The notes under the pieces: generated by a model
The model's input: the letters and a program-made list of their open reading frames with translations, nothing else
What the model was told of the DNA's origin: nothing
Databases searched by the model: none
Made by a program: the position numbers and the translations under genes
Assembly (NCBI GenBank): GCA_011525785.1
Contig: WYBT01000020.1
Location: 1 to 64,000 of the forward strand
Direction: 5' to 3'
Source of the DNA: Planctomycetaceae bacterium
Lineage (GTDB): Bacteria > Planctomycetota > UBA1135 > GCA-002686595
DNA length: 64,000 bases
In this document: positions 32,845-45,086 of the stretch, one piece after another
Position numbering within the stretch: position 1 is the stretch's first letter
Layout: each line of letters opens with the position of its first letter

Positions 32845-34533
32845 TCAGGGCAGCACGCTGAAGCGCAACGCGTCGCTCAAGTTCGTTCCGCGCGGCGCCG
32901 TCGGATCGCGGAACCACGCTTGAGCGTTGACGGTCTCTCCGCCGACGAACGGCGCGCCCAGCGAGCCCGGCGCGGCGTGCACGAAGGCGCTCCAGTCGAG
33001 GCTGATCACGCCCGTGCACTGCGCGAGCACGCCGCCCGAGTTGGTGATCGGCCCGCGCTGCGTCGGCGGCCGCACGCAGAACCAGCTCGTGCTTCCCGCA
33101 GCCCACGGCAGCGGGGTGAAGCCGCCGTTGTCGAGCCCGTAGAACACCACGCCCAGGCGCTGGGGTTCGACGTCCGTGGCGCGCAGCACGAAGCCGCTGC
33201 TGGCGGAGGCGCTGGGCGAGCCCGTGGCGCCCATGCGCGGCGCGCAGCCGAGCGTGGTCGTGGAGCTCGTGCAGTAGTTCGCGAGCGTGGCCGCGTACTC
33301 GCGCCGCAGCCACTGCGTGTGCACGCCGGCGTACTCCTCGATCCCGCCGACGTAGAACCCGCGGCCGCCGTCCCACGCGCCGCACAGCGCCTGCTCGTGC
33401 GCGTTCGAATCGCCCTGGCGGATCCACACCAGCGCGCCCGCGCCGTCGAGCCGCGCAGTCCACGTGTCGCGCAGGCCGGCGCTCGAGCCGCTCACGACGC
33501 CGTCGGTGCTGCCGATCACGAACGCGCCGCCTTCACCGTCGCGACAGCAGGCGGCGACGGAGTCCTCCTCCGACGACCCCAACTGCCTGGTCCACAAGCG
33601 CTGGCCCGTCGCAGCGACACGCGCGATCCACGCGTCGACGCTGCCGATGTAACTCGCCGCGCCGGCGAGGTCGCCCTCCGTCGTCCCCGCGACGAACAGG
33701 CCGCCCGCGCCGTCGCTCGCCGCGCCGTTGACCATGTCCGTTGTGTCGCTGCCGAACTGTTGGAGCCACAGCGTGGTCCCGGCGCCGTCGACGCGCGCGA
33801 TCCAGGCGTCCCAGCCGCCGATGAGTCCGGCGAGATCGCCATCGTTCGTCGAGCCGACCACGAACACGCCGCCGGCGCCGTCGTCGACGAGTGCACTGAC
33901 GGCATCGAGCTCGCTCGAGCCGAACTGGCGCCGCCACAGCTCCGCGCCCGACGCATCGAGCTTGACCAGCCACACGTCGTTCGAACCCGCGTTGGGCCCG
34001 GCGATGTCGCCGTTGGTGACGCCCGCGACGAACAGTTCGGCGCCGCTCGAGCAACCTGCTCGCGCCTCGTCGTAGTGCAGCGTTCCGAGCTGCCGCGCCC
34101 AGCTCAGCGCGCCCGCAGCGTCGAAGCGCGCGACCCACGCGTCGAGATCGCCGAAGGCGGCGCCGCCGAGCACGCCGCTCGTCGAACCCGCGACTACGAA
34201 GCCGGCGCTCGCGTCGCGCCAGGCGGCGTGGGGGATGTCGTGCCCGGTCGAGCCCAGCGACGTGGTCCACAGCGTCGCGCCCGCGGGCGAGGTGCGGCGC
34301 AGCAACACGTCACTGGCGCCGGCGGTCGTCCCCGCGCTCGGCGTGAGCACGCCGGCGACCAGCGCGCCGTCCAAGCGCTCGGCGGCGATGGCGCGCGGCA
34401 CGAGCGCGGGCGCGTCGAGCGGCACGGTCCAGGTGCTTGTTTGCACGCTCGCAGCGCTCGCCAGCGCGACCAGGAGCGAAAGCACAGCGCCGCAGGCGCG
34501 CACTCTGGGAAGTTCGCAACTCGACATGGCCAC
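32845..34533 (-). CDS. Secreted beta-propeller (SBBP-type) repeat protein with shared C-terminal domain
   Basis: 562-residue exported protein. The N-terminal hydrophobic segment (about residues 12-28) acts as signal peptide. Residues about 60-410 hold about seven repeats of the form WxRQLGSxxxDxxxAxxxDGxGGxFVxGSTxG, the SBBP/beta-propeller pattern. The last 143 residues (DNA 32845-33276) are the shared C-terminal module, subtype [39 protein letters not shown] and LSDALRF, ending VLP. The propeller has no visible active site, so an extracellular binding or structural role is likely. It is convergent with the acetoacetyl-CoA synthetase gene. Confidence 0.85.
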
Positions 34534-34657: not shown

Positions 34658-35638
34658 TCAGCGGTTCTTGTTGAGCACGGCGCGCAGCTGCTCGATGAGC
34701 TGCTCGGCTTCCGTGGCCGCGTAGCCCGCGCTCGGCGTCTTCTGGATCTTCTTGAGATCCTCGAGCGCGCCCTCGATGTCCTTGCGCTTGGTCGGCGCCT
34801 TCTCACGGATCTTGGCGATCTGCTTTTGGAGCTTGATCACCTCTTCCGCGGCCGGGTTGGCCTTGACGTCGGCCGCGATCTTCTCGACCTCGGCCTGCTG
34901 CGGAAGTCCCGCGAGCTCCTTGACCAGCGCCGCCGCGCTCTTCTCCGCGCCGAGGAAGTCGCCTTGCTCGTACGCCAGGCGCGCGAGCTCGACCTTCGAC
35001 TTCACCATGCCTTCGATCGCCGCGCGGATGGTCGCGCCGTCGTCGGCCTCGCCCAGCTTGGCCGCTTCGTCGAGCGCCAGCTTGTACTGCCGCTTCATCA
35101 GCGCGGCCTTGGTGTTCTTGGTCGCGGCCGACCATTCCCACAACGGCTTGGGCAGCGCGCCCGCCGTCGCCTTGGCCAGGATCGCGTCGCTGTAAGCGCC
35201 TGCGCCGCCGTTGTAGACCACCGTGCCGCTCGCATCGACGATCACGACGTGCGGGATGCCGCGCACGCCGAAGTAGTTCGAGAGCTTGCCAGCCTTGTCG
35301 TAGCCGTAGGCGTACTTCGCGCCCTTGTCGGCCACCCACTTGTCGGTCTCACCCTTGCCTTCACCGGTCACGCCGATGATCGACAGGCCCTTGCTACCCC
35401 ACTTCTCTTGAAGCTCGTTGAGGTGCTTGACCTGTCCGCCGCACGGGCCTCACCAGTAGGCGAAGAACTCGAACAGAACGGCGCGGCCGAGGAAGTCGTC
35501 GTAGCTCTTCGCGCCGGTCTGGGTGAGCTCTTCGAGCTCGACCGGCGGGAGCTTGCTGCCCGGGGCCTGGGCTTGGAGCGGCGCGGCGAGTCCCGCGACG
35601 ACCAGCGCCAGTGCGCCCAACCATTTGAACTGGAACAT
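34658..35638 (-). CDS. TlpA/thioredoxin-like selenoprotein (UGA decoded as selenocysteine at residue 63)
   Basis: 326-codon frame, open throughout except for a TGA at 35450-35452. The start ATG at 35636-35638 has a good ribosome-binding site (AAAGGA, 8 nt upstream). The signal peptide is about residues 1-24 (ending LQAQ). The thioredoxin-like domain runs VLFEFFAYW-U63-GPC66, so the TGA falls exactly on the first cysteine of the W-C-G-P-C motif. After it the frame continues with clear TlpA features: HLNELQEKWGSKGLSIIGVTGEG, the cis-proline GVRGIPHVVIVD and GTVVYNGG. A C-terminal charged helical region (about 175-326) looks like coiled coil. A SECIS-like hairpin follows the UGA. The alternative is a nonsense mutation or sequencing error at that codon; conserved coding on both sides argues against decay. 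Confidence 0.82.
35413..35452 (-). promoter_or_regulatory. Candidate bacterial SECIS element following in-frame UGA
   Basis: In E. coli fdhF the SelB-binding hairpin begins just after the UGA and presents an AGGUC sequence at nucleotides 21-25 counted from the U. Here AGGUC lies at nucleotides 20-24 (35433-35429). It is inside a loop closed by GUGC (35444-35441) pairing with GCAC (35426-35423), with possible extra pairing of GAG in the UGA region to CUC. The loop of 14 nt is larger than in fdhF, so the fold is plausible, not proven; it was paired by eye without energy calculation. Confidence 0.55.
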
Positions 35639-35646
35639 GCGTAGGG

Positions 35647-35652
35647 TCCTTT
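35647..35652 (-). promoter_or_regulatory. Ribosome-binding site fixing the selenoprotein start
   Basis: On the minus strand AAAGGA precedes the ATG at 35638 by 8 nt, one of the clearest Shine-Dalgarno matches in a window where most genes lack one. It supports the start at 35638 over the in-frame ATG at 35686 and places the signal peptide directly at the N terminus. Confidence 0.6.
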
Positions 35653-35737: not shown

Positions 35738-38700
35738 TCAACGATGCTGGGCGCGGGCGCGCCAGTGCTGAGCTCGCTCCGCGTGACCGGCGCCGCTGTC
35801 GAGGGCCTCGAGCGCGTCGAACAGCCGCGCGAGGCGTTCGCTCGCTTCGACGCGAGGGTCGGCTTGCCCGGGGCGGCTGGCGGGGGCGTCGTTCGCGGCG
35901 CCGAGTTGCTCGGCGGCCTCGATCAGCGTCGCGCGCGCCGGCGCCAGAGCCGCGGGCTCGGCCGAGGCCTGGCCCAACTGCGCTTCGCCGAGCAGCACGC
36001 GTGTGTACGCGATGCGCCAGCGCGACTCGCGCGGGTTGCGCTCGCGCAGCACGAGGCTCTCGCGCGCCGCCGACTCGGCTTCGTCCCAGCGCTTCAGCTC
36101 GAGCGCGGCCGCGGCGAGCGTCGAGAGATCCTGCGCGAGCTCGACTCCACCGCTGCGCCGCAGCGCCTCGGTGCAGCGGCGCAACGCCTGCGCGGCGGAC
36201 TCGAAGTCGCGACGCGCGCTGGCGATCACGCTCGCGTTGCGCCAAGCGCGCACGACGCGGTCGTGGTCGGCTCCGAGCGCCGCCTCGAGCGCCACCGCCG
36301 CGCGGCCGTAGCACTCGGCGGCTTCGTCCAGGCGCCGCAGGCCGTGCAGCGTCGAGCCGAGCGCCTGCGCGGTCGTCGCGGTGTCGACATGGGCCTCGCC
36401 CAGGGCCGCGCGCCGGGCCTCGAAGGCGCGCCGCAGGATCGGCTCGGCTTCGTCGAAGCGTCGCAGGTTGAAGAGCGCGACGCCGAGGTTGTGCGCGCAG
36501 GAGTGGAAGGCCGGGCGCGCGTCTTCGAGCAGCGCATCGAGTCCTGCGTACGCCTCGCGCAGCAGCACGATGGCGTCCTCGTAGCGTTGCTGCGCCGAGC
36601 GCAGGCGGCCCACGCGCGCCAGCACGTGGTGCAGCTCGGTCTCGCCCACGCCGTTCACGCGGCGCAGTCGCTCGACGAGTTCGACGAACAGCGGCTCGGC
36701 CTGCTCGACGCGGCCAGTGTTGAGCAGATTGCCGGCGAAATTGTCGAGCAGGCCCAGCGTGATGGTGTGGTCGTCGCCGTGCGAGCGCCGCGCGATCGCG
36801 AGACCCGCCTCGAGCTCGCTCAAGGCCTCGTCGGTGCGCCCGAGCATCATCCACGCCGTCCCCAGCGAGTGCAGCGCGCGCAAGCTCCGTCGATCGCCCG
36901 CGCCGAAGCGGCGTCGATAGCCGGCCAGCGCGGCCTCGAGCTCCGCTGCGCCTTCGTCAGTGCGCTGCAGGTGGATCAGCACTCCGCCCAGGCTGCTCTG
37001 AACGTCGAGCGCGTTCTCGTCGTCGGGCCCGTGCGTGCGCGTCCAACCCTCCAGCGCCGCGCGGAACGAGCTCTCAGCGGCCTCGTGCGCTCCAGCGTAG
37101 GTTTCGAGCGTTCCGAGCGCGTTCAGCGCGTGCAACTCGAGTTCGTGATCCGCTCCCAGTTCCGCGCGCAGCTCGCGAGCGAGTTCTTCGAGAGCCGCGC
37201 GCCGGTCCTCGACTTCGCCGCGGTTCGCGTTGGACCGCAACACGTTCAGGCGCGCCCGCAACGTGAGCTCGTGCCGCGCACCGAGTTCTCGCTCGCGCAG
37301 CTCCAGCACGCTGCTGCGCAACTGCGCTTCCGCCTCGAAACGCCCCAGATTCGCGAGCGACTGCGCCAGGCGTTCGAGCAAGCTCGCGCGCACCAGCGGC
37401 TGCGTCGCGAACTGCTCGTCGATCGCACGCCGCGTCGGCTCGAAGATCGAGTGCTCGAGCGCGTCAACGGCCAGCGTGGTCAAGTTCGCTTCGCGCAGCA
37501 CGCCCTGCAGGCGCGCAAGCTCGGCTTCGACTTCGGCCGTATCCGCGGCGGCGCGCGTCGCCCACGCGCGGCGCTCGGCCAGGAGCCTCTCGCGCAAGCG
37601 CAAGCCCATCGACTCGGCGTCGATCTGCTCGAACTGCGCTTCCTGGAAGGCGACGACCTGCTCGAGCTCGTCGGCGCGGCGCTGCGCTTCACGCTCGGCG
37701 AGCGTCGCACGCTCCGCGGCGGCCTCGGCGTTCCGGCGCGCTTCGTCGGCCAGCGCGCTGGCGCGTTCGGCGTCGACCCGACGCTCTTCGGCGCGCAGGG
37801 CGAAGTGCGTGCTCGCCGCGATCCCCGCCACGAGCGCCACGAACAGCGCCGCGGCGGCTGCGACCTGCCAGCGGTTGCGCCGCACGAACTTCGAGAGCTG
37901 GTAGGCCGTGCTCGGCGGTCGCGCGAGCACCGGTTCGTCGCGCAGGAAGCGCTCGACGTCATCGGCCAGCGCGCTGGCCGAGTCGTAGCGCCGCGCGCGG
38001 TCCTTCTCGAGCGCCTTGAGCACGATCCAGTCGAGGTCACCCGAGAGTTTGGAGGCGAGCTCCTGCGGCGCGAGCGCGCGCAGCAGCGCCGCGCGCTGGG
38101 TCTGTTCGTCGTTCGTGGCCGCGCGCGTCGACGGCCGCGTCGGCTCGCCCTCGCGGATCGTGCGCAGCACCTCGTCGTAGCCGCGCTCGAACGCCGCGCG
38201 CAAATCGTGCGGCTTGGCGCCCGTCAACAGCTCGTAGAGCAGCACGCCCAGGCTGTACACGTCGGCGCGCGTGTCGATGTCGATCCCGCCCAGCGCGGTC
38301 TGCTCCGGCGCCATGTACTCGGGCGTGCCGAGCAGCTGCTGGAAGCCCGTGAAGAGCGTTTTCTCGGTCAGCTCGACGCCCGTGGCCTTGGCGATGCCGA
38401 AGTCGATCACCTTGGGGCACGGCGCGCCGTCGGCGAGCGTGACGAGCACGTTCGAGGGCTTCACGTCGCGGTGGATCACGCCCTTTTGGTGCGCGTGCTG
38501 CAGTGCGCGGCAGGTCGTGACGAACAGCGCGAGCCGGTCCTCGAGCGACGAACGCGCTTCGTCGCAGAAGGTCGTGATCGGCACGCCGCGCACCAGCTCC
38601 ATCGCGAAGTACGGACGTCCGCTGCGCGTCACGCCGGCGTCGAAGACCTTGGCGATGCTGGCGTGCTCCATCAGCGCCAACGCCTGTCGTTCGGCCTCGA

Positions 38701-39076
38701 AGCGCGCGACGACGGCCTTGGTGTCCATGCCGAGCTTGAGCACCTTCAGCGCCACCTTGCGCTTCACCGGCTCGAGCTGCTCGGCCATCCAGACCTCGCC
38801 GAAGCCGCCCTCGCCGATGCGCTCGAGCAGCTTGAAGCGGCCGACGAGTTCGCCGACCTGCTCGGCGTCCGCAGTGCGCGCTGAGTTCGTGAGGAAGCCC
38901 TCGGCGCGCGCATCGGCGGCCAGCAGGCGCTCGACGCGGGCGCGCAGCTTCGAATCGCCGCCGCAGGCCTGCTCGAGCAGCCGAGCGCGCTCGCGCGGGT
39001 CGGCGACGGCGCGCGCGCGGTGGAACAGCTCTTCGACGTTCGGGGTGGAGCTCACGGCCTGGGGCTCAATGCGCAA
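35738..39076 (-). CDS. Ser/Thr protein kinase with transmembrane helix and TPR region
   Basis: 1112-residue membrane kinase of the planctomycete type. The cytoplasmic kinase domain spans about residues 80-380: glycine loop IGEGGFGEVW, K111, HRDVKPSN (D204), DFG (D225), GTPEYMAPE and DVYSLGVLLYELLTG. A membrane helix lies at about 403-425, followed by a coiled-coil stretch rich in Ala, Glu and Arg. The C-terminal 650 residues are TPR-like helical repeats (ALHSLGTAWMMLGRTDEALSELEAGL and similar), predicted outside. The ECF sigma factor gene is 39 bp upstream on the same strand, the usual pairing for this group, so the two probably work in one signalling circuit. The selenoprotein gene follows 99 bp downstream. 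Confidence 0.93.
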   Translation of the reverse strand: MRIEPQAVSSTPNVEELFHRARAVADPRERARLLEQACGGDSKLRARVERLLAADARAEGFLTNSARTADAEQVGELVGRFKLLERIGEGGFGEVWMAEQLEPVKRKVALKVLKLGMDTKAVVARFEAERQALALMEHASIAKVFDAGVTRSGRPYFAMELVRGVPITTFCDEARSSLEDRLALFVTTCRALQHAHQKGVIHRDVKPSNVLVTLADGAPCPKVIDFGIAKATGVELTEKTLFTGFQQLLGTPEYMAPEQTALGGIDIDTRADVYSLGVLLYELLTGAKPHDLRAAFERGYDEVLRTIREGEPTRPSTRAATNDEQTQRAALLRALAPQELASKLSGDLDWIVLKALEKDRARRYDSASALADDVERFLRDEPVLARPPSTAYQLSKFVRRNRWQVAAAAALFVALVAGIAASTHFALRAEERRVDAERASALADEARRNAEAAAERATLAEREAQRRADELEQVVAFQEAQFEQIDAESMGLRLRERLLAERRAWATRAAADTAEVEAELARLQGVLREANLTTLAVDALEHSIFEPTRRAIDEQFATQPLVRASLLERLAQSLANLGRFEAEAQLRSSVLELRERELGARHELTLRARLNVLRSNANRGEVEDRRAALEELARELRAELGADHELELHALNALGTLETYAGAHEAAESSFRAALEGWTRTHGPDDENALDVQSSLGGVLIHLQRTDEGAAELEAALAGYRRRFGAGDRRSLRALHSLGTAWMMLGRTDEALSELEAGLAIARRSHGDDHTITLGLLDNFAGNLLNTGRVEQAEPLFVELVERLRRVNGVGETELHHVLARVGRLRSAQQRYEDAIVLLREAYAGLDALLEDARPAFHSCAHNLGVALFNLRRFDEAEPILRRAFEARRAALGEAHVDTATTAQALGSTLHGLRRLDEAAECYGRAAVALEAALGADHDRVVRAWRNASVIASARRDFESAAQALRRCTEALRRSGGVELAQDLSTLAAAALELKRWDEAESAARESLVLRERNPRESRWRIAYTRVLLGEAQLGQASAEPAALAPARATLIEAAEQLGAANDAPASRPGQADPRVEASERLARLFDALEALDSGAGHAERAQHWRARAQHR

Positions 39077-39115: not shown

Positions 39116-39685
39116 TCACGCTTCGTCGCTGAGCGCGTCGAGCAGCCAGGCGCGCGCGTAGGCCCAGTAGCGATCGGCGGTGGTGGTGGAGATGCCCAGC
39201 AGCGCTGCGGCCTCGCGCTGACTCAGTCCGCCGAAGAAGCGCAGCGAGACCAGCTCGGCCTTCTGTGGATCCTCCTGCGCCAGGCGTTCGAGCGCCTCGT
39301 CGAGGTCGAGCAGCTCGGGCGGCGGCGCGTCGACGAACAGCTGCGAGGCGTCGAGTTCGATGCGCTGGCGCTTGCCGGCCCGCTTCTGGGCCCCGCGTTC
39401 GCGCGCGCGATCGACCAGGATGCGCCGCATGGCCTGCGCCGCCGCGCCGAAGAAGTGCCCGCGGCCTTCCCAGCCGTCCGCGCCGCGATTTTCCGGCCCC
39501 AGGATGCGCAGGTAGGCCTCGTGCACGAGCGCCGTGGCGTTCAGCGAGGGCGCGCCGGCCTCGCGGCGCAGGCGCTGGGCCGCGAGCTCGCGCAGCTCGG
39601 CGTAGACCAGCGGCAGGAGCTCGGCCGCCGCCCGCGGATCGCCGGATCGGGCCGCCTCGAGCGCTCGCGTCAGCTCCAGATTCAC
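39116..39685 (-). CDS. ECF-subfamily RNA polymerase sigma factor (TIGR02999-like)
   Basis: 189-residue sigma factor from a GTG at 39683-39685, where homology begins (NLELTRALEAARSGD). Region 2 includes LLPLVYAELRELAAQRLRRE and ALVHEAYLRIL, characteristic of the sigma group found with planctomycete and acidobacterial Ser/Thr kinases. HFFGAAAQAMRRILVDRARER is conserved in that group. Region 4 carries the helix-turn-helix LSQREAAALLGISTTTADRYWAYARAWL. No anti-sigma factor is adjacent; the membrane kinase gene 39 bp downstream is the likely regulatory partner. The GTG start is tentative, since the frame is open far upstream. Confidence 0.92.
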   Translation of the reverse strand: MNLELTRALEAARSGDPRAAAELLPLVYAELRELAAQRLRREAGAPSLNATALVHEAYLRILGPENRGADGWEGRGHFFGAAAQAMRRILVDRARERGAQKRAGKRQRIELDASQLFVDAPPPELLDLDEALERLAQEDPQKAELVSLRFFGGLSQREAAALLGISTTTADRYWAYARAWLLDALSDEA

Positions 39686-39851: not shown

Positions 39852-42800
39852 ATGAGCAGCGAGCGAAGTGTGGCGGCGCGCGTACGGCGCGGGGTGTCGG
39901 GCGTGGCGGTGTGGTTGGCGGCGGCGGCGTTGGCCGGCGCGCAGCGCGTAGAGGTCGGCGGCGTCGAGCTCCCGGCCGTCGAGCTTGCGCCAGCGCAGGA
40001 TGGCGGAGCGGCGTTTGTGCCCTTCGCGCTGACGCCGACGACCGGTGAGGTGAAGGTGCTCGTCGCGCTCGAGGCGCTCGACGATTTCGTGGCCTCGGGC
40101 GCCGCCGCGGGCGCCGTGCTCGTGAGCGAATCGGCGCTGGCGCACGTGTACCGCATCGACGCGCGCGACGCAGCGCTCGTCGAGGGCCTCGCGGGCGTCG
40201 AAGTGCGCCCCGAGTTCCACCAGGTGTGGCTGCGCCGCGGCGTGCTCGACACGCGCAGCGGAACGCGCGCGGCGGATGGCGTGCTGCACGCGTCGTTCGA
40301 CGTGCGCCGCATGGCGCTGGCGCAGTTCCATGGCCCGGTCAGCGACGCGGAGCACGCTGCGCTCGTCGCCACTGGCGTGGAGCTCGTCCACTACCTGCCG
40401 CAGAACGCGTATCTGGTGTGGATCGCCAGCGACGATGCCCGCGCGCGACTGCTCGCGCTCCGCGGCGACTCGAGCGGCCTCGCCTTCGTCGACGCGTTGC
40501 TGCCCGAGGACGTCGTGTCGCCGCGGCTCGACGGCGCACAAGGAGTGATCGAGGTCACGCTGCAGGTCTTCAATCCGGCCGCAGAGCGCTCGACGAAGCC
40601 GCTCGAGCGCGCGGCCGTGCTCGAAGCGATCGGACTGACCGAAGGTCTGCTGCGCGAGCCCGAAGACGTGCTCGGCGGCGTCTACACGAACATCACCGCG
40701 CGCGTGGCGGTGCAAGCGCTCGAGACGCTCGCGCTGCTCGATGCTCTGGTCAACGTCGAACCCTTCCAGCTGCCGCACCAGATGAGCGAGCGCCAGGCGC
40801 AGGAAGTGCGCGGCGCGTGGAACGCGGCCGGCACGGGCGCCGCCGGGCCCGGTTACGCCAACTTCCTCAACGCAAGCGGCTTTCCGACGACTCCGTCCAG
40901 CTACCCGGTGGTGGCGGTCGTCGATTCGGGCATCGACAACGGCACGACCAGTCCGCTCGACAACTCGCTTCGCACCGGCGGAATTCCCGGACAGCCGTCG
41001 CGCGTGATCGCGACCGCCAACCTCAGCAACGAGTCGAGCGCGAGCTGCATCAACGGGCACGGACACCTGTGCGCGTCGGTGATCGCAGGCTCTGGGATCG
41101 CCGATGCGTGGCCGGACGGCGCGTTCGTGCGCGGGCTTGGAATCGCGCCGGCCGCGCGGCTCTCGAACATCAAGTACCTGAACAACAACAACTCCGGCTC
41201 TCTCACGAGCCACGCGACGCTGGCCGAAACGGCCTGGGGCCACGGGGCGCGCATCAGCTCGAATTCGTGGGGCTCGGACGCGTTTGGCGCGTACACCGCC
41301 AGCTCGCAGCAGCACGACCAACTCGCGCGCGACGCGAGCTCTGCGGGCGGCAACCAACAGATGCTGTTCGTGTTCTCCGCGGGCAATGACGGAGTGGCCG
41401 GTGTCGGCGCGCCGGCGACGGCCAAGAACGTGCTCACGGTGGGCGCGACGGAGGGCTCGGACGCTCAGAGCGGCTGCGGCGGTTCGTCGACGGCGGACAA
41501 CATCCAGCAGATCGCCTCGTTCTCATCGCGCGGACCGACGACGGACGGTCGCAGCAAGCCGGAAGTCGTCGCGCCTGGCACGCACGTCGTGGGCACGGCC
41601 AGTCCGGCGTCCTCCTACAACGGATTCTCCGTATGCGACGACTACTACCCCGCGGGTCAGACGACGTACACGTGGGCCAACGGTACGAGCTTCTCCGCGC
41701 CCGCGCTGTCCGGCGTGCAGGCGCTGACCACGAACTACCTCTCGCGCGTGCACAGCATCGCGAACCCGTCGCCTGCGTTGCTCAAGGCCTACACGCTGCA
41801 CCAGACGCGCTTCTTGAACTCGACGGGCGGCAACTTGCCGAGCTTCAACCAAGGTTTCGGCTTCCCTTGGCTCGACCTCGCCTTCGACCAGACCTTCGTG
41901 CGCAAGTTCGCCGACCAGAACTCGCTGTTCAACTCGACCGGCGAGTATCGCGAGTACGTCGGAACGGTGGCGAACGTGCTGCGGCCCGTGCGCGTCGCGC
42001 TGGTGTGGACCGATGCGCCCGGCAGCACGGTCGGCGCGTCGTGGGTCAATGACCTCGACCTGACCGTGATCGTCGGCGCCAACACGTACCGCGGCAACGT
42101 GTTCTCGGGCGGGCTGTCGACGACCGGCGGCTCGGCGGACCTCAACGACAACAGCGAGCTCGTCGTGTTGCCCACGGGCTTCGCCGGAACGATCCGCGTG
42201 CGCGTGAGCGCTGCGAACATCGCGGGCGATGGCGTGCCCGGCAACGCCGACGCGACGGACCAGGACTTCGCGCTCGTGATCGCCAACATGAACTACTCGA
42301 GCGGCTGCACGCCGCCGACGTTGACCACGAACTTGAGCGCAAACGCCGCGAGCGCGTGCACGGGGTCTCCGCTCACGTTGTCCGTGGCGGCGAGCGGATC
42401 CAACCTCTCCTACAAGTTCTATCGCAACGGTCAGACCGTGCAGAGCGGGAGCTCGAACACCTACACCGTCCCCAGCCCGACCGCGGTCGACGCCGGAACG
42501 TACACGTGCCAGATCGGCAACGCCTGCGGGGACGTGCTCTCGGCGCCGGTGACGGTGGTCGTGAACAGCGCGCCGAGCGCGGTTCAGCAACCGACCGGCC
42601 TGGGTCTGTGCACGGGTTCGTCCGGTCAACTGCAGTTCGTCGCCAGCGGAACGCCCGCGCCGACCTACCAGTGGAAGCGCAACGGCGTCGACATCCCCGG
42701 TGCGACCTCCAGCACTTACGCGATTGCCTCGATGAACGCGGGTCTGGCGGGCTCGTACCAGTGCAACGCCACCAACGTGTGCGGCGTGACGATCTCGAAC

Positions 42801-45086
42801 GAGGTGCTGCTCACGAACTTCACCACGCCGGTGTTCTCGACGCAGCCGCAGAGCACGAATGCCTGCCAGGGAAGCACCGTGCAGCTCACGGCGGCGCTCG
42901 CCAACCCGATCATCGGCACGACCTACAGCTGGACCCGCAACAACGTGCAGGTGATCGGCGCCAACGGGCCGAGCTTGACGATCACGAACCTGTCCACGGC
43001 CAACACGGGAACCTACTTGTGCCTGGCGTCGAACCCGTGCGGCAACACGTGGTCCGCGCAGGCTGTCGTCGGCCTCTACACGACGCCGGTCATCACCACG
43101 CAGCCCGTCAGCCAGAGCTTCTGCGTCGGCGTGCCGTTCGGATTCTCCGTGGCGGTCTCCAACACGACGCCGACGCCCAGCTACCAGTGGCGCAGGAACG
43201 GCGCGCCGATCGCTGGCGCGACGAACTCGAGCTACACCGGCGCGGGTTCGAGCGCCAATGACGGCCTGTACGACTGCGTCGTCACCAACAGCTGCGGGAG
43301 CACGACCTCGACGGCCGCGACGTACACCGCGCGCGTTGCGCCGGCGATCACCGTCCAGCCGCAGAACACGGCCCTGTGCGCGGGCGTCAACGGCGTGCTG
43401 AGCATCACGGCGAGCGGCACGGCGCCGATCGCGTACGAGTGGTTCCGCAACGGAGTCGGACTGGGCGGCTTCACCAACCCGGCGTACACGATCTTCAATC
43501 CCTCGGGCGCAAACGCCGGCCAGTACTTCTGCCGCGTGACGAACGCGTGCGGCTCGGTCGACTCGAACGTGATCACGGTCACGGTCGATACCGCGCCGAC
43601 GATCCAGACGCAGCCGGTGGGAGCGACGCTGTGCGCGCCTGCGCCGATCTCGCTCAGCGTGGGCGCCTCGGGTTCGCCGAACTTGAGCTACCAGTGGCGG
43701 CGCAACGGCGCGCCGCTCGCCGGAGCGACGAACGCGACGCTCGTGCTCGCCTCGACGGGCGCGGCGGACGCGGGCAGCTACGACTGCGTGGTCTCGAGCA
43801 CTTGCACGAGCATCACCTCGAACGCTGCGGTGCTGGTGGTCAACGTTGGTCCGCTCGTGACGCAGCAGCCGCTCGGCGCCGCGCCCTGCGTCGGCTCGCC
43901 GGCGCTGTTCACGGTCGCTGCGAACGCGACGCCGACGCCGACCTTCCAGTGGCGCAAGGGCGGCGCGCCGATCGCGGGCGCGACGGCTGCGACGTTCTCG
44001 ATCGCAGCGGTGAGCGCGGCGGACGTCGGCAGCTACGACTGCGTGATCAGCAACTCGTGCGGTTCGACGACCAGCGCGCCGGCAGCGCTCTCGCTGGGCG
44101 CGCCCGATGCGTGCATCGCGGGCGGCCCGGGCGGCGCGTGGCCGGCGCCGGGCGCTGCGGACGGCGGATGGCCGAGCGTGCTGCCGACCGGAGCGCTCAC
44201 CTCGACGCTCAGCGTCAACGTGCCGGCGGGCGCCGCGCGCATCAGCGCGGTCAAGCTCAACGGCTTCGCGCACCCGTGGTCGGGCGACAACCAGGTCGTG
44301 CTCGAGACGCCCAGCGGCGCGCGCATCAACCTGTTCCAACAGGTCGACGGGGCCTTCGGCGCCGGCTGCGGCTCGCCCTTCGTCGGAGACTACGTGTTCG
44401 TGGACGTCAACGCGGCCTCGGGCTCGTGCGGCGTCGCCGCGAGTGACTTCGCGTGCGTCGGCGGCGCGATCGCGCCGGGCGTGTACCGCCAGTTCTTCGG
44501 CGCATGGCCGAGCGGCGCGGCGGGCATCGACAACACTGCGCTCAGCGCGCTGCCGCTCGCTTCGGGCGTCTACACGCTGCGCATCTACGACTGGTTCGTC
44601 GGCGCCGACAGCGGCTCGCTCGCGAGCTGGGAGCTGTGCTTCGACGCGTCGACGCCTCCGCTCGCGTACTGCACCGGCGGCACGACGACCAACGGCTGCG
44701 CGGCGAGCATCGACGCGAGCGGCCAACCGAGCGCGAGCTTTGCGACGCCGTGCGTGCTCAGTGTCACGAACGTCGAAGGCGGCAAGTCGGGCCTGGTCTT
44801 CTACGGTGTCTCGGGCTCGCAGGCCGTGCCCTGGAACAACGTGAGCCTGTTGTGCGTGAAGACTCCGGTGCAGCGCACGACCGGCCAGTTCTCCGGCGGA
44901 ACTCCGGGCGCGTGCGACGGGCAGTTCACGCTCGACTGGAACGCGTACCAGACGCAGAACCCGCTCTCGCTCGGCAACCCGTTCGGGCCCGGCGCAAAGG
45001 TCTGGGCGCAAGCCTGGTTTCGCGATCCGCCGGCGCAGGGCACGACGAACTTGTCGAACGCTGTGGAGCTGACCTACTCGCCCTGA
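39852..45086 (+). CDS. Giant secreted subtilisin-family (S8) protease with seven Ig-like domains, P-domain and shared C-terminal domain
   Basis: 1744-residue exported serine protease. The signal peptide is about residues 1-31. After a prodomain of about 300 residues, the S8 catalytic triad is D358 (VVAVVDSGID), H403 (NGHGHLCASVIAG) and S613 (NGTSFSAPALSG), with SSNSWGS supplying the oxyanion Asn. A beta-sandwich follows (LVWTDAPGS...NDLDLTVI). Seven Ig-like repeats of about 85 residues come next (DNA 42306-44108), each with a disulfide pair and a YQWRRNG-type strand, then a proprotein-convertase-like P-domain (SVNVPAGAARISAVKLNGFAHPWSGD...). The shared C-terminal module, subtype A, closes the protein (DNA 44667-45086; YCTGGTTTNGC, CVKTPVQRT, AWFRDPP). 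It is likely an extracellular or surface protease. It diverges from the sigma-factor operon and overlaps the DTW gene end by 13 bp. Confidence 0.93.
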   Translation: MSSERSVAARVRRGVSGVAVWLAAAALAGAQRVEVGGVELPAVELAPAQDGGAAFVPFALTPTTGEVKVLVALEALDDFVASGAAAGAVLVSESALAHVYRIDARDAALVEGLAGVEVRPEFHQVWLRRGVLDTRSGTRAADGVLHASFDVRRMALAQFHGPVSDAEHAALVATGVELVHYLPQNAYLVWIASDDARARLLALRGDSSGLAFVDALLPEDVVSPRLDGAQGVIEVTLQVFNPAAERSTKPLERAAVLEAIGLTEGLLREPEDVLGGVYTNITARVAVQALETLALLDALVNVEPFQLPHQMSERQAQEVRGAWNAAGTGAAGPGYANFLNASGFPTTPSSYPVVAVVDSGIDNGTTSPLDNSLRTGGIPGQPSRVIATANLSNESSASCINGHGHLCASVIAGSGIADAWPDGAFVRGLGIAPAARLSNIKYLNNNNSGSLTSHATLAETAWGHGARISSNSWGSDAFGAYTASSQQHDQLARDASSAGGNQQMLFVFSAGNDGVAGVGAPATAKNVLTVGATEGSDAQSGCGGSSTADNIQQIASFSSRGPTTDGRSKPEVVAPGTHVVGTASPASSYNGFSVCDDYYPAGQTTYTWANGTSFSAPALSGVQALTTNYLSRVHSIANPSPALLKAYTLHQTRFLNSTGGNLPSFNQGFGFPWLDLAFDQTFVRKFADQNSLFNSTGEYREYVGTVANVLRPVRVALVWTDAPGSTVGASWVNDLDLTVIVGANTYRGNVFSGGLSTTGGSADLNDNSELVVLPTGFAGTIRVRVSAANIAGDGVPGNADATDQDFALVIANMNYSSGCTPPTLTTNLSANAASACTGSPLTLSVAASGSNLSYKFYRNGQTVQSGSSNTYTVPSPTAVDAGTYTCQIGNACGDVLSAPVTVVVNSAPSAVQQPTGLGLCTGSSGQLQFVASGTPAPTYQWKRNGVDIPGATSSTYAIASMNAGLAGSYQCNATNVCGVTISNEVLLTNFTTPVFSTQPQSTNACQGSTVQLTAALANPIIGTTYSWTRNNVQVIGANGPSLTITNLSTANTGTYLCLASNPCGNTWSAQAVVGLYTTPVITTQPVSQSFCVGVPFGFSVAVSNTTPTPSYQWRRNGAPIAGATNSSYTGAGSSANDGLYDCVVTNSCGSTTSTAATYTARVAPAITVQPQNTALCAGVNGVLSITASGTAPIAYEWFRNGVGLGGFTNPAYTIFNPSGANAGQYFCRVTNACGSVDSNVITVTVDTAPTIQTQPVGATLCAPAPISLSVGASGSPNLSYQWRRNGAPLAGATNATLVLASTGAADAGSYDCVVSSTCTSITSNAAVLVVNVGPLVTQQPLGAAPCVGSPALFTVAANATPTPTFQWRKGGAPIAGATAATFSIAAVSAADVGSYDCVISNSCGSTTSAPAALSLGAPDACIAGGPGGAWPAPGAADGGWPSVLPTGALTSTLSVNVPAGAARISAVKLNGFAHPWSGDNQVVLETPSGARINLFQQVDGAFGAGCGSPFVGDYVFVDVNAASGSCGVAASDFACVGGAIAPGVYRQFFGAWPSGAAGIDNTALSALPLASGVYTLRIYDWFVGADSGSLASWELCFDASTPPLAYCTGGTTTNGCAASIDASGQPSASFATPCVLSVTNVEGGKSGLVFYGVSGSQAVPWNNVSLLCVKTPVQRTTGQFSGGTPGACDGQFTLDWNAYQTQNPLSLGNPFGPGAKVWAQAWFRDPPAQGTTNLSNAVELTYSP
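42306..44108 (+). repeat. Seven tandem Ig-like domain repeats inside the subtilisin gene
   Basis: Seven units of about 255 bp encode Ig-like domains. Each has an early Cys after a QPxxxxxC motif, a central YxWxRNGxxIxGA strand, and a late DAGxYxCxxxNxCG segment. Units 2 to 7 start near TQP or QQP. The units are diverged at residue level (no two near-identical), indicating old duplication under selection, unlike the near-identical 33-residue repeats at 46539-47924. Confidence 0.85.

Follow-up and report, generated by a model that had tools for sequence, protein, structure and literature searches.

Thioredoxin-like selenoproteins in which selenocysteine (Sec, U) leads a UxxC motif are a known kind, according to the table of PMC13188914 and excerpts of PMC2398784. 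Those closest to the gene discussed here are, from partial descriptions, the thiol-disulfide isomerase-like or Trx-like UxxC proteins of the Sargasso Sea and Global Ocean Sampling (GOS) data (cd02966, COG0526), a Prx-like thiol:disulfide oxidoreductase (PF00578, UxxC) and a Redoxin family selenoprotein (PF08534, UxxC, HEU0032618.1). Here we analyse a gene in a 64,000-nucleotide stretch of planctomycete DNA (contig WYBT01000020.1, positions 1 to 64,000; hereafter the window), in which an in-frame TGA at 35452-35450 is, to judge from sequence comparison, very probably decoded as Sec, giving a thioredoxin-like oxidoreductase that is predicted to be exported and to have U-G-P-C as its active site. 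The predicted protein shares the thioredoxin fold and the leading Sec of the UxxC motif with the Sargasso Sea and GOS proteins; on the descriptions available it is set apart from them by an all-helical C-terminal domain of ~155 residues, by a TGA in most rows of its family and by its place in the Planctomycetota. With the Prx-like and the Redoxin family selenoproteins, likewise compared by description, it has the Pfam family and the UxxC placement in common. The ResA-like selenoprotein model NF041054 (WAxxUGC_long) has, by its name, a WAxxUGC motif, while the window protein has WUGPC, and relative to ResA, DsbE (CcmG) and TlpA the window protein carries Sec for the first Cys as well as a helical C-terminal extension. 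The planctomycetes P1 and P2 from Porphyra share the Sec trait and have several selenoprotein genes, of which fdhA and fmdB are named in the excerpt of PMC4807772.

The coding sequence occupies 34658..35638 on the minus strand (326 residues including Sec63), with near-full-length homologues; read from 35638 to 34658 it comprises 326 codons, counting the ATG and the TGA at codon 63, and ends at a TGA at 34660-34658. Its sole internal stop is the TGA at 35450..35452, in the context FEFFAYW-U-GPCGGQV, and the same codon is TGA in nearly all relatives inspected. An earlier note on this DNA had placed a break in a 326-codon TlpA-like frame at exactly these positions without giving the strand; the break is there, and the strand is minus. 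The note's proposal that the TGA takes up the position of the leading Cys in W-C-G-P-C is borne out by the reading of the frame and by the homologues, and the resulting motif W62-U63-G64-P65-C66 spans 35441..35455 on the minus strand. Behind the TGA the frame stays open, and the GPC, helix, predicted cis-Pro loop and C-terminal region that had been described as intact are so, with P65, C66 and P129 invariant across the 28 rows of our alignment A1, from which L029, with a further in-frame TAA, and the fragment L041 were excluded. The G+C content at third codon positions is 0.90 before the TGA and 0.92 after it, G+C per codon position being near-equal on both sides, and at 70.2% G+C a run of 263 open codons has a naively estimated probability of 0.007. 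Together with the TGA found at 45 of 47 loci (see below), this indicates that the open frame behind the TGA is not due to chance. On the plus strand the same stretch holds a 337-aa shadow frame and nothing else. A scan of the window for in-frame TGA codons between two coding-like stretches returned eight candidates, among which codon 63 alone replaces, by eye, an active-site residue.

We then compared the codon in relatives. When the read-through protein was searched against its own genome and those of 60 relatives, translating through stops, the best of many more rows amounted to 30 loci, and 28 of these, the own locus included, have TGA at the Cys position, the other two (L033 and L036) having TGC. 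All 17 further loci that were fetched, L195 among them, likewise have TGA at this position, so that the inspected loci combined give TGA at 45 of 47 and TGC at 2 of 47, with 44 of the 45 outside the window's own genome; residue 63, which had been singled out for a check of U or C in homologues, is thus predominantly encoded by TGA, the predicted U. A class-level search of 154 genomes gave 96 rows from the 86 genomes with matches at E<=1e-20, of which 90 contain at least one TGA and 6 none, and a phylum sample of 294 genomes gave 59 rows from 53 genomes, 48 with TGA and 11 without (both counted by eye). The placement of the TGA was inspected for the fetched loci, the other rows being counted for a TGA inside the match. 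Rows free of TGA are not all Cys forms, since some span only part of the protein and one, a copy in G016, has neither active-site residue; full-length Cys proteins number 14. Decay of homologues behind the TGA, which had been suggested as a sign against the gene, was looked for and is absent: the frames are intact, and between the window gene and its same-genus copy the nonsynonymous rate (dN) lies below the synonymous rate (dS) both before the TGA (dN 0.150, dS 0.654) and behind it (dN 0.168, dS 0.466).

The genome from which the window is taken, a draft assembly of 63 contigs and 90.66% completeness, contains all four components of the Sec machinery whose presence the earlier note had proposed to check. 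SelA (486 bits), SelD (315 bits) and SelB (342.8 bits, with SelB wing 2 and wing 3 domains) all exceed their cut-offs, and a tRNA-Sec scores 72.5 bits against a cut-off of 47 and is called tRNA-SeC with anticodon tca by ARAGORN; selA, selD and selC are found close together on contig 19, in a span of ~13 kb. The presence of SelA, SelB, SelD and tRNA-Sec in the genome, together with the TGA at the first active-site Cys in 45 of 47 loci, is what the Sec reading rests on. Among the 22 AhpC-TSA matches in this genome five contain an in-frame TGA, the window gene being one of them. L164, L170, L172 and L182 have the TGA at an active-site position and can be named by eye as a BCP-like peroxiredoxin (DTPG-U-TRQGC), two W-U-GPC proteins and a W-U-VTC lipoprotein-like protein, and SelD itself (L154) has its own in-frame TGA (CAG-U). 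With the window gene and SelD counted, at least six genes of the genome thus have a TGA at a catalytic or active-site position. The gene had been proposed as a notable addition to known bacterial selenoproteins; its status as a selenoprotein gene is supported, but it is not alone, given at least five further such genes in its genome and a known UxxC thioredoxin-like kind. A genome-wide count of the pattern WUxPC was rejected as a Sec census: it gave 19 matches compared with 3 for a reversed control, and three of the 19 (C12, C40 and C46) are Sec genes found otherwise.

The family also co-occurs with SelA, which exceeds its cut-off in 59 of 61 genomes (own genome and relatives). In the phylum sample SelA (E<=1e-60) is present in 45 of the 46 genomes with a TGA-bearing match as compared with 192 of 294 overall (Fisher p 1.5e-8, uncorrected for kinship), while genomes with a stop-free match have SelA in five of seven cases and lack it in two. 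Both G021 and G034, which carry the Cys form, have SelA, the SelA match in G021 containing an in-frame TAG, suggesting that Cys replaced Sec in these genomes without loss of the SelA gene. The overall figure of 192 in 294 is itself a high rate for the marker gene of the Sec trait in this phylum.

Several observations weigh against decoding as Sec, above all those concerning the selenocysteine insertion sequence (SECIS): a canonical or shared SECIS is not established, and this is the main open point of the Sec reading. Using the published bacterial SECIS (bSECIS) constraints in our own implementation rather than the bSECISearch program, we found that 11 of 43 Sec genes satisfy the model and 32 miss it, compared with 25% of codon-shuffled controls and with 73% for other places in the same 43 genes. 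The window gene has no element that fits the published bSECIS model, and the folding of the 44 nt that start from its UGA resembles that of their own shuffles (z 0.12). RNAalifold detected no common structure in 28 UGA-anchored windows. Constrained best hairpins showed no excess over codon-resampled controls (mean z 0.17), nor did the best SECIS-like hairpin stand out from codon-shuffled ones (mean z 0.11); simple hairpins 14-24 nt behind the UGA showed no overall excess (mean z -0.14), single genes such as L035, L039 and L196-L199 falling in the best 10% of their own controls. In sliding windows set against codon-shuffled controls, the region 24-66 nt from the UGA ranked first among 41 offsets (mean z -1.19, standard error 0.21), with other offsets close behind (mean z -0.95 and -0.93). 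A search of 141 bases around the UGA against Rfam gave one match, at chance level. Outside the SECIS question, G353, a genome of 77% completeness, carries the TGA form without SelA (1 of 46), the rows of the family searches are related and their counts therefore depend on one another, and the export, electron donor and client of the enzyme are elements that we infer.

The signals that do appear near the UGA are faint. The window gene has a weak hairpin, AGGU-CAAGC-ACCU, 17-29 nt behind the TGA (35421..35433, minus strand; -1.5 kcal/mol), as a candidate SECIS core; its four pairs are all kept in 13 of 43 Sec genes, and its role as the core is possible but unproven. Synonymous conservation in 14 close rows is slightly raised behind the UGA (0.738 vs 0.655 upstream) and reaches 0.823 in codons 14-30 behind it. 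Among the remaining Sec genes of this genome, hairpins reach z of about -2.8 in SelD, about -3.1 in L182 and at best -1.9 in L172, and those of L164 and L170 do not clearly exceed their shuffles. According to section 5 of PMC13188914, the published bSECIS model is failed by a subset of selenoprotein genes.

With no SECIS signal established by the tests used, recruitment of SelB to UGA 63 is unexplained, a point in favour of readthrough of the codon by another amino acid, via a suppressor tRNA or near-cognate Trp or Cys insertion, or of a reassignment of UGA in the lineage. We regard this as very unlikely, as TGA is also the terminal stop of the gene itself and, with it counted, of 19 among the 29 complete frames in the first set, a tRNA-Sec (tca) and the Sec genes are present, at least six genes including SelD have TGA at a redox-active or catalytic position, and the co-occurrence with SelA is strong. 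The draft state of the assembly and the additional TAA in the homologue L029 would fit a sequencing error at a codon that is truly TGC or TGT, or a dead gene; recurrence of the TGA in 45 of 47 loci, 44 of them from other genomes, together with dN below dS behind the TGA, an intact frame and matching codon composition, leaves this the least credible of the explanations considered.

A different proposal accepts Sec and shifts its purpose: the UGA could have been selected mainly as a selenium-sensing switch rather than for its chemistry, yielding a 62-residue secreted fragment without selenium and the full oxidoreductase with it. A weak SECIS could make decoding inefficient, and Sec has been kept far more often than Cys in this family, unlike the usual pattern described in section 8 of PMC13188914. 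Yet the TGA lies exactly at the catalytic residue, full-length Cys versions exist that chemistry alone explains, and nothing points to a function for the short fragment, which makes the switch improbable in our view, if somewhat less so than readthrough or reassignment. Decoding of TGA 35452-35450 as the catalytic Sec of an oxidoreductase thus remains the preferred explanation.

The thioredoxin-fold domain comprises residues 27-160 (35159..35560, minus strand) and is recognised by PF00578 with 60.3 bits against a cut-off of 26 as well as by fold matches; PF08534 (Redoxin) is likewise above its cut-off. The predicted structure, with a predicted local distance difference test score (pLDDT) of 91, shows a ResA/DsbE-type thioredoxin fold followed by an all-helical C-terminal domain. 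In the model, helix 64-83 starts at residue 64, directly after Sec63, and model and alignment agree in the arrangement that defines the thioredoxin fold, with a Pro loop facing the redox pair, which opens the first active-site helix. Pro129 (35252..35254, minus strand), in the sequence GIPH, is the predicted cis-Pro, a role suggested by the fold. None of the NCBIfam models reaches its cut-off with the window protein, the top-scoring selenoprotein model being NF041054 (38.3 vs 300 bits), which matches 43 of the 59 rows of alignment A2 at E<=1e-3; ResA (NF002854, 50.2 vs 170 bits) and DsbE (TIGR00385, 44.3 vs 123.15 bits) also stay below theirs.

The all-helical C-terminal domain (residues 171-325; 34664..35128, minus strand) has no Pfam match in the window protein. 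Searched alone with Foldseek it found no match at E<=0.001, the best being BamD (3qky, E 0.12), and this lack of a fold match does not establish a new fold. When members of the family were tested for TPRs, one of 59 matched PF20308 (TPR-S) at E<=0.01. Five of 59 matched PF06133 (Com_YlbF) at the same threshold, the best at 5.2e-4, and one member matched NF010209 (2.8e-5); the window protein matches neither YlbF model, and helical composition may be the cause of these matches.

The N-terminus, MFQFKWLGALALVVAGLAAPLQAQA (residues 1-25, ending in AQA; 35564..35638, minus strand), resembles a signal peptide by eye, and residues 10-22 are of low confidence in the predicted structure. Upstream lies a ribosome-binding-site-like AAAGGA (35647..35652, minus strand); GAAAGGA also occurs 5' of L018, L020 and L024. 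The signal peptide and good ribosome-binding site of the earlier note are thus matched by stretches that resemble such elements, their functions being presumed from their form. If the gene is decoded as we propose, SelB-GTP would deliver Sec-tRNA(Sec) to UGA 63 with the aid of a cis signal not pinned down, the UGA at the end of the frame would still terminate translation, and the putative signal peptide would take the product through the inner membrane. On the far side, Sec63 would attack, through its selenolate, a disulfide or another form of oxidised sulfur, leaving a mixed selenosulfide for Cys66 to resolve, and a putative membrane electron donor would re-reduce the Sec-Cys pair, while the helical, perhaps TPR-like, C-terminal domain might hold a client or partner. 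The protein would then be a periplasmic thiol-disulfide oxidoreductase that, like ResA/DsbE-type proteins, most likely works on the reducing side.

In order to trace the history of the Sec/Cys position, we built a tree of 59 rows (43 Sec and 16 Cys) with this column masked. It requires four changes of Sec/Cys state, its basal groups are Sec, and the nine-row Sec clade with the window gene has a 12-protein Cys clade as its sister group. Sec therefore appears to be ancestral, with the Cys forms nested and derived and the direction probably from Sec to Cys; this is a quick tree in which 17 of 56 inner branches are open and the outgroup used falls short of forming a single clade. A broader and rather doubtful proposal is that this family of Sec-first exported thioredoxins with a helical domain had Sec originally or very early in the Planctomycetota and kept it across many families, Cys being a rare derived state, and that its SECIS lies outside the published model, perhaps as a very short stem or sequence context read by a planctomycete SelB.

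Additional members were seen beside one another or farther afield. In G016 a paralogue (G016:C1:2719775-2720704, in L162) lies ~1.8 kb downstream of a Sec copy and has lost both active-site residues; it may be a non-catalytic partner. Members adjoin in pairs on G079:C475, G071:C591 and G214:C180 (both rows with TGA) and on G095:C191 (one row with TGA). Two contig scans for close relatives, made with a single pattern that had Cys at the TGA position, returned nothing in one case and identities of at most 37% among the best 80 of 179 rows in the other, and viral contigs hold 27 distant relatives at 20-34% identity.

The sigma factor-kinase pair reported beside the gene was recovered: a Ser/Thr kinase with TPRs, identified by family search, lies at 35738..39076 and an ECF sigma factor (PF07638, 185.6 bits) upstream of it at 39119..39670, both on the minus strand. 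The kinase and the gene are separated by 99 bp on the same strand. Among five relatives compared, the kinase adjoins the gene only in G001, of the same genus, and not in G025, G032, G043 or G016; G032 has a kinase-domain match of 37% identity ~3.5 kb from the gene. As the adjacency is confined to the same-genus genome (1 of 5), the neighbourhood says little about function and was dropped as a clue, and the gene is at most part of a kinase operon in this genus. Scans for consensus promoters and terminators gave nothing above chance, and no tandem repeats were found. Just downstream of the gene, on the same strand, 32845-34533 encodes a 562-aa protein with SBBP beta-propeller repeats, and 39852-45086 holds a 1744-aa frame that by eye looks like a subtilisin-like protease carrying repeated Ig-like domains.

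The lineage is Planctomycetota. G016, a genome that carries the Sec form and is assigned by the search tool to the family of the window's own genome, has a second contig that shows 100% identity, over 20,000 compared bases, with plasmid CP036297.1 of Planctomycetes bacterium Pla86; with CP036288.1 of Pla133 the identity is 99.8%. We take Pla86 and Pla133 to be Engelhardtia mirabilis of the 'Saltatorellus' clade, and Pla86 to be cultured. An excerpt of PMC11032199 gives a G+C content of 70% for this clade, and the window has 70.2%.

A database search with the piece behind the TGA returned 93 proteins, 88 of at most 262 aa and five of at least 319 aa, and all 12 of the short ones that were read begin behind the Sec position. 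Gene callers thus start behind the UGA, and the active site is lost from the databases. The family is unnamed in the titles and abstract openings of the open-access literature, a search to which subscription papers, supplements and preprints did not belong. As far as these searches reach, the dominance of Sec, the helical domain, the breadth in Planctomycetota, the annotation that cuts the proteins short and the absence of a recognisable SECIS are new. Selenoenzymes are usually outnumbered by far more abundant Cys homologues (section 8 of PMC13188914). With the TGA form dominant (90 of 96 class-level rows) and Cys seemingly derived, this family lends itself to asking what makes selection retain Sec. 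It also provides a test case for the annotation of Sec, and a confirmed absence of a canonical SECIS would put the real requirements of SelB to the test.
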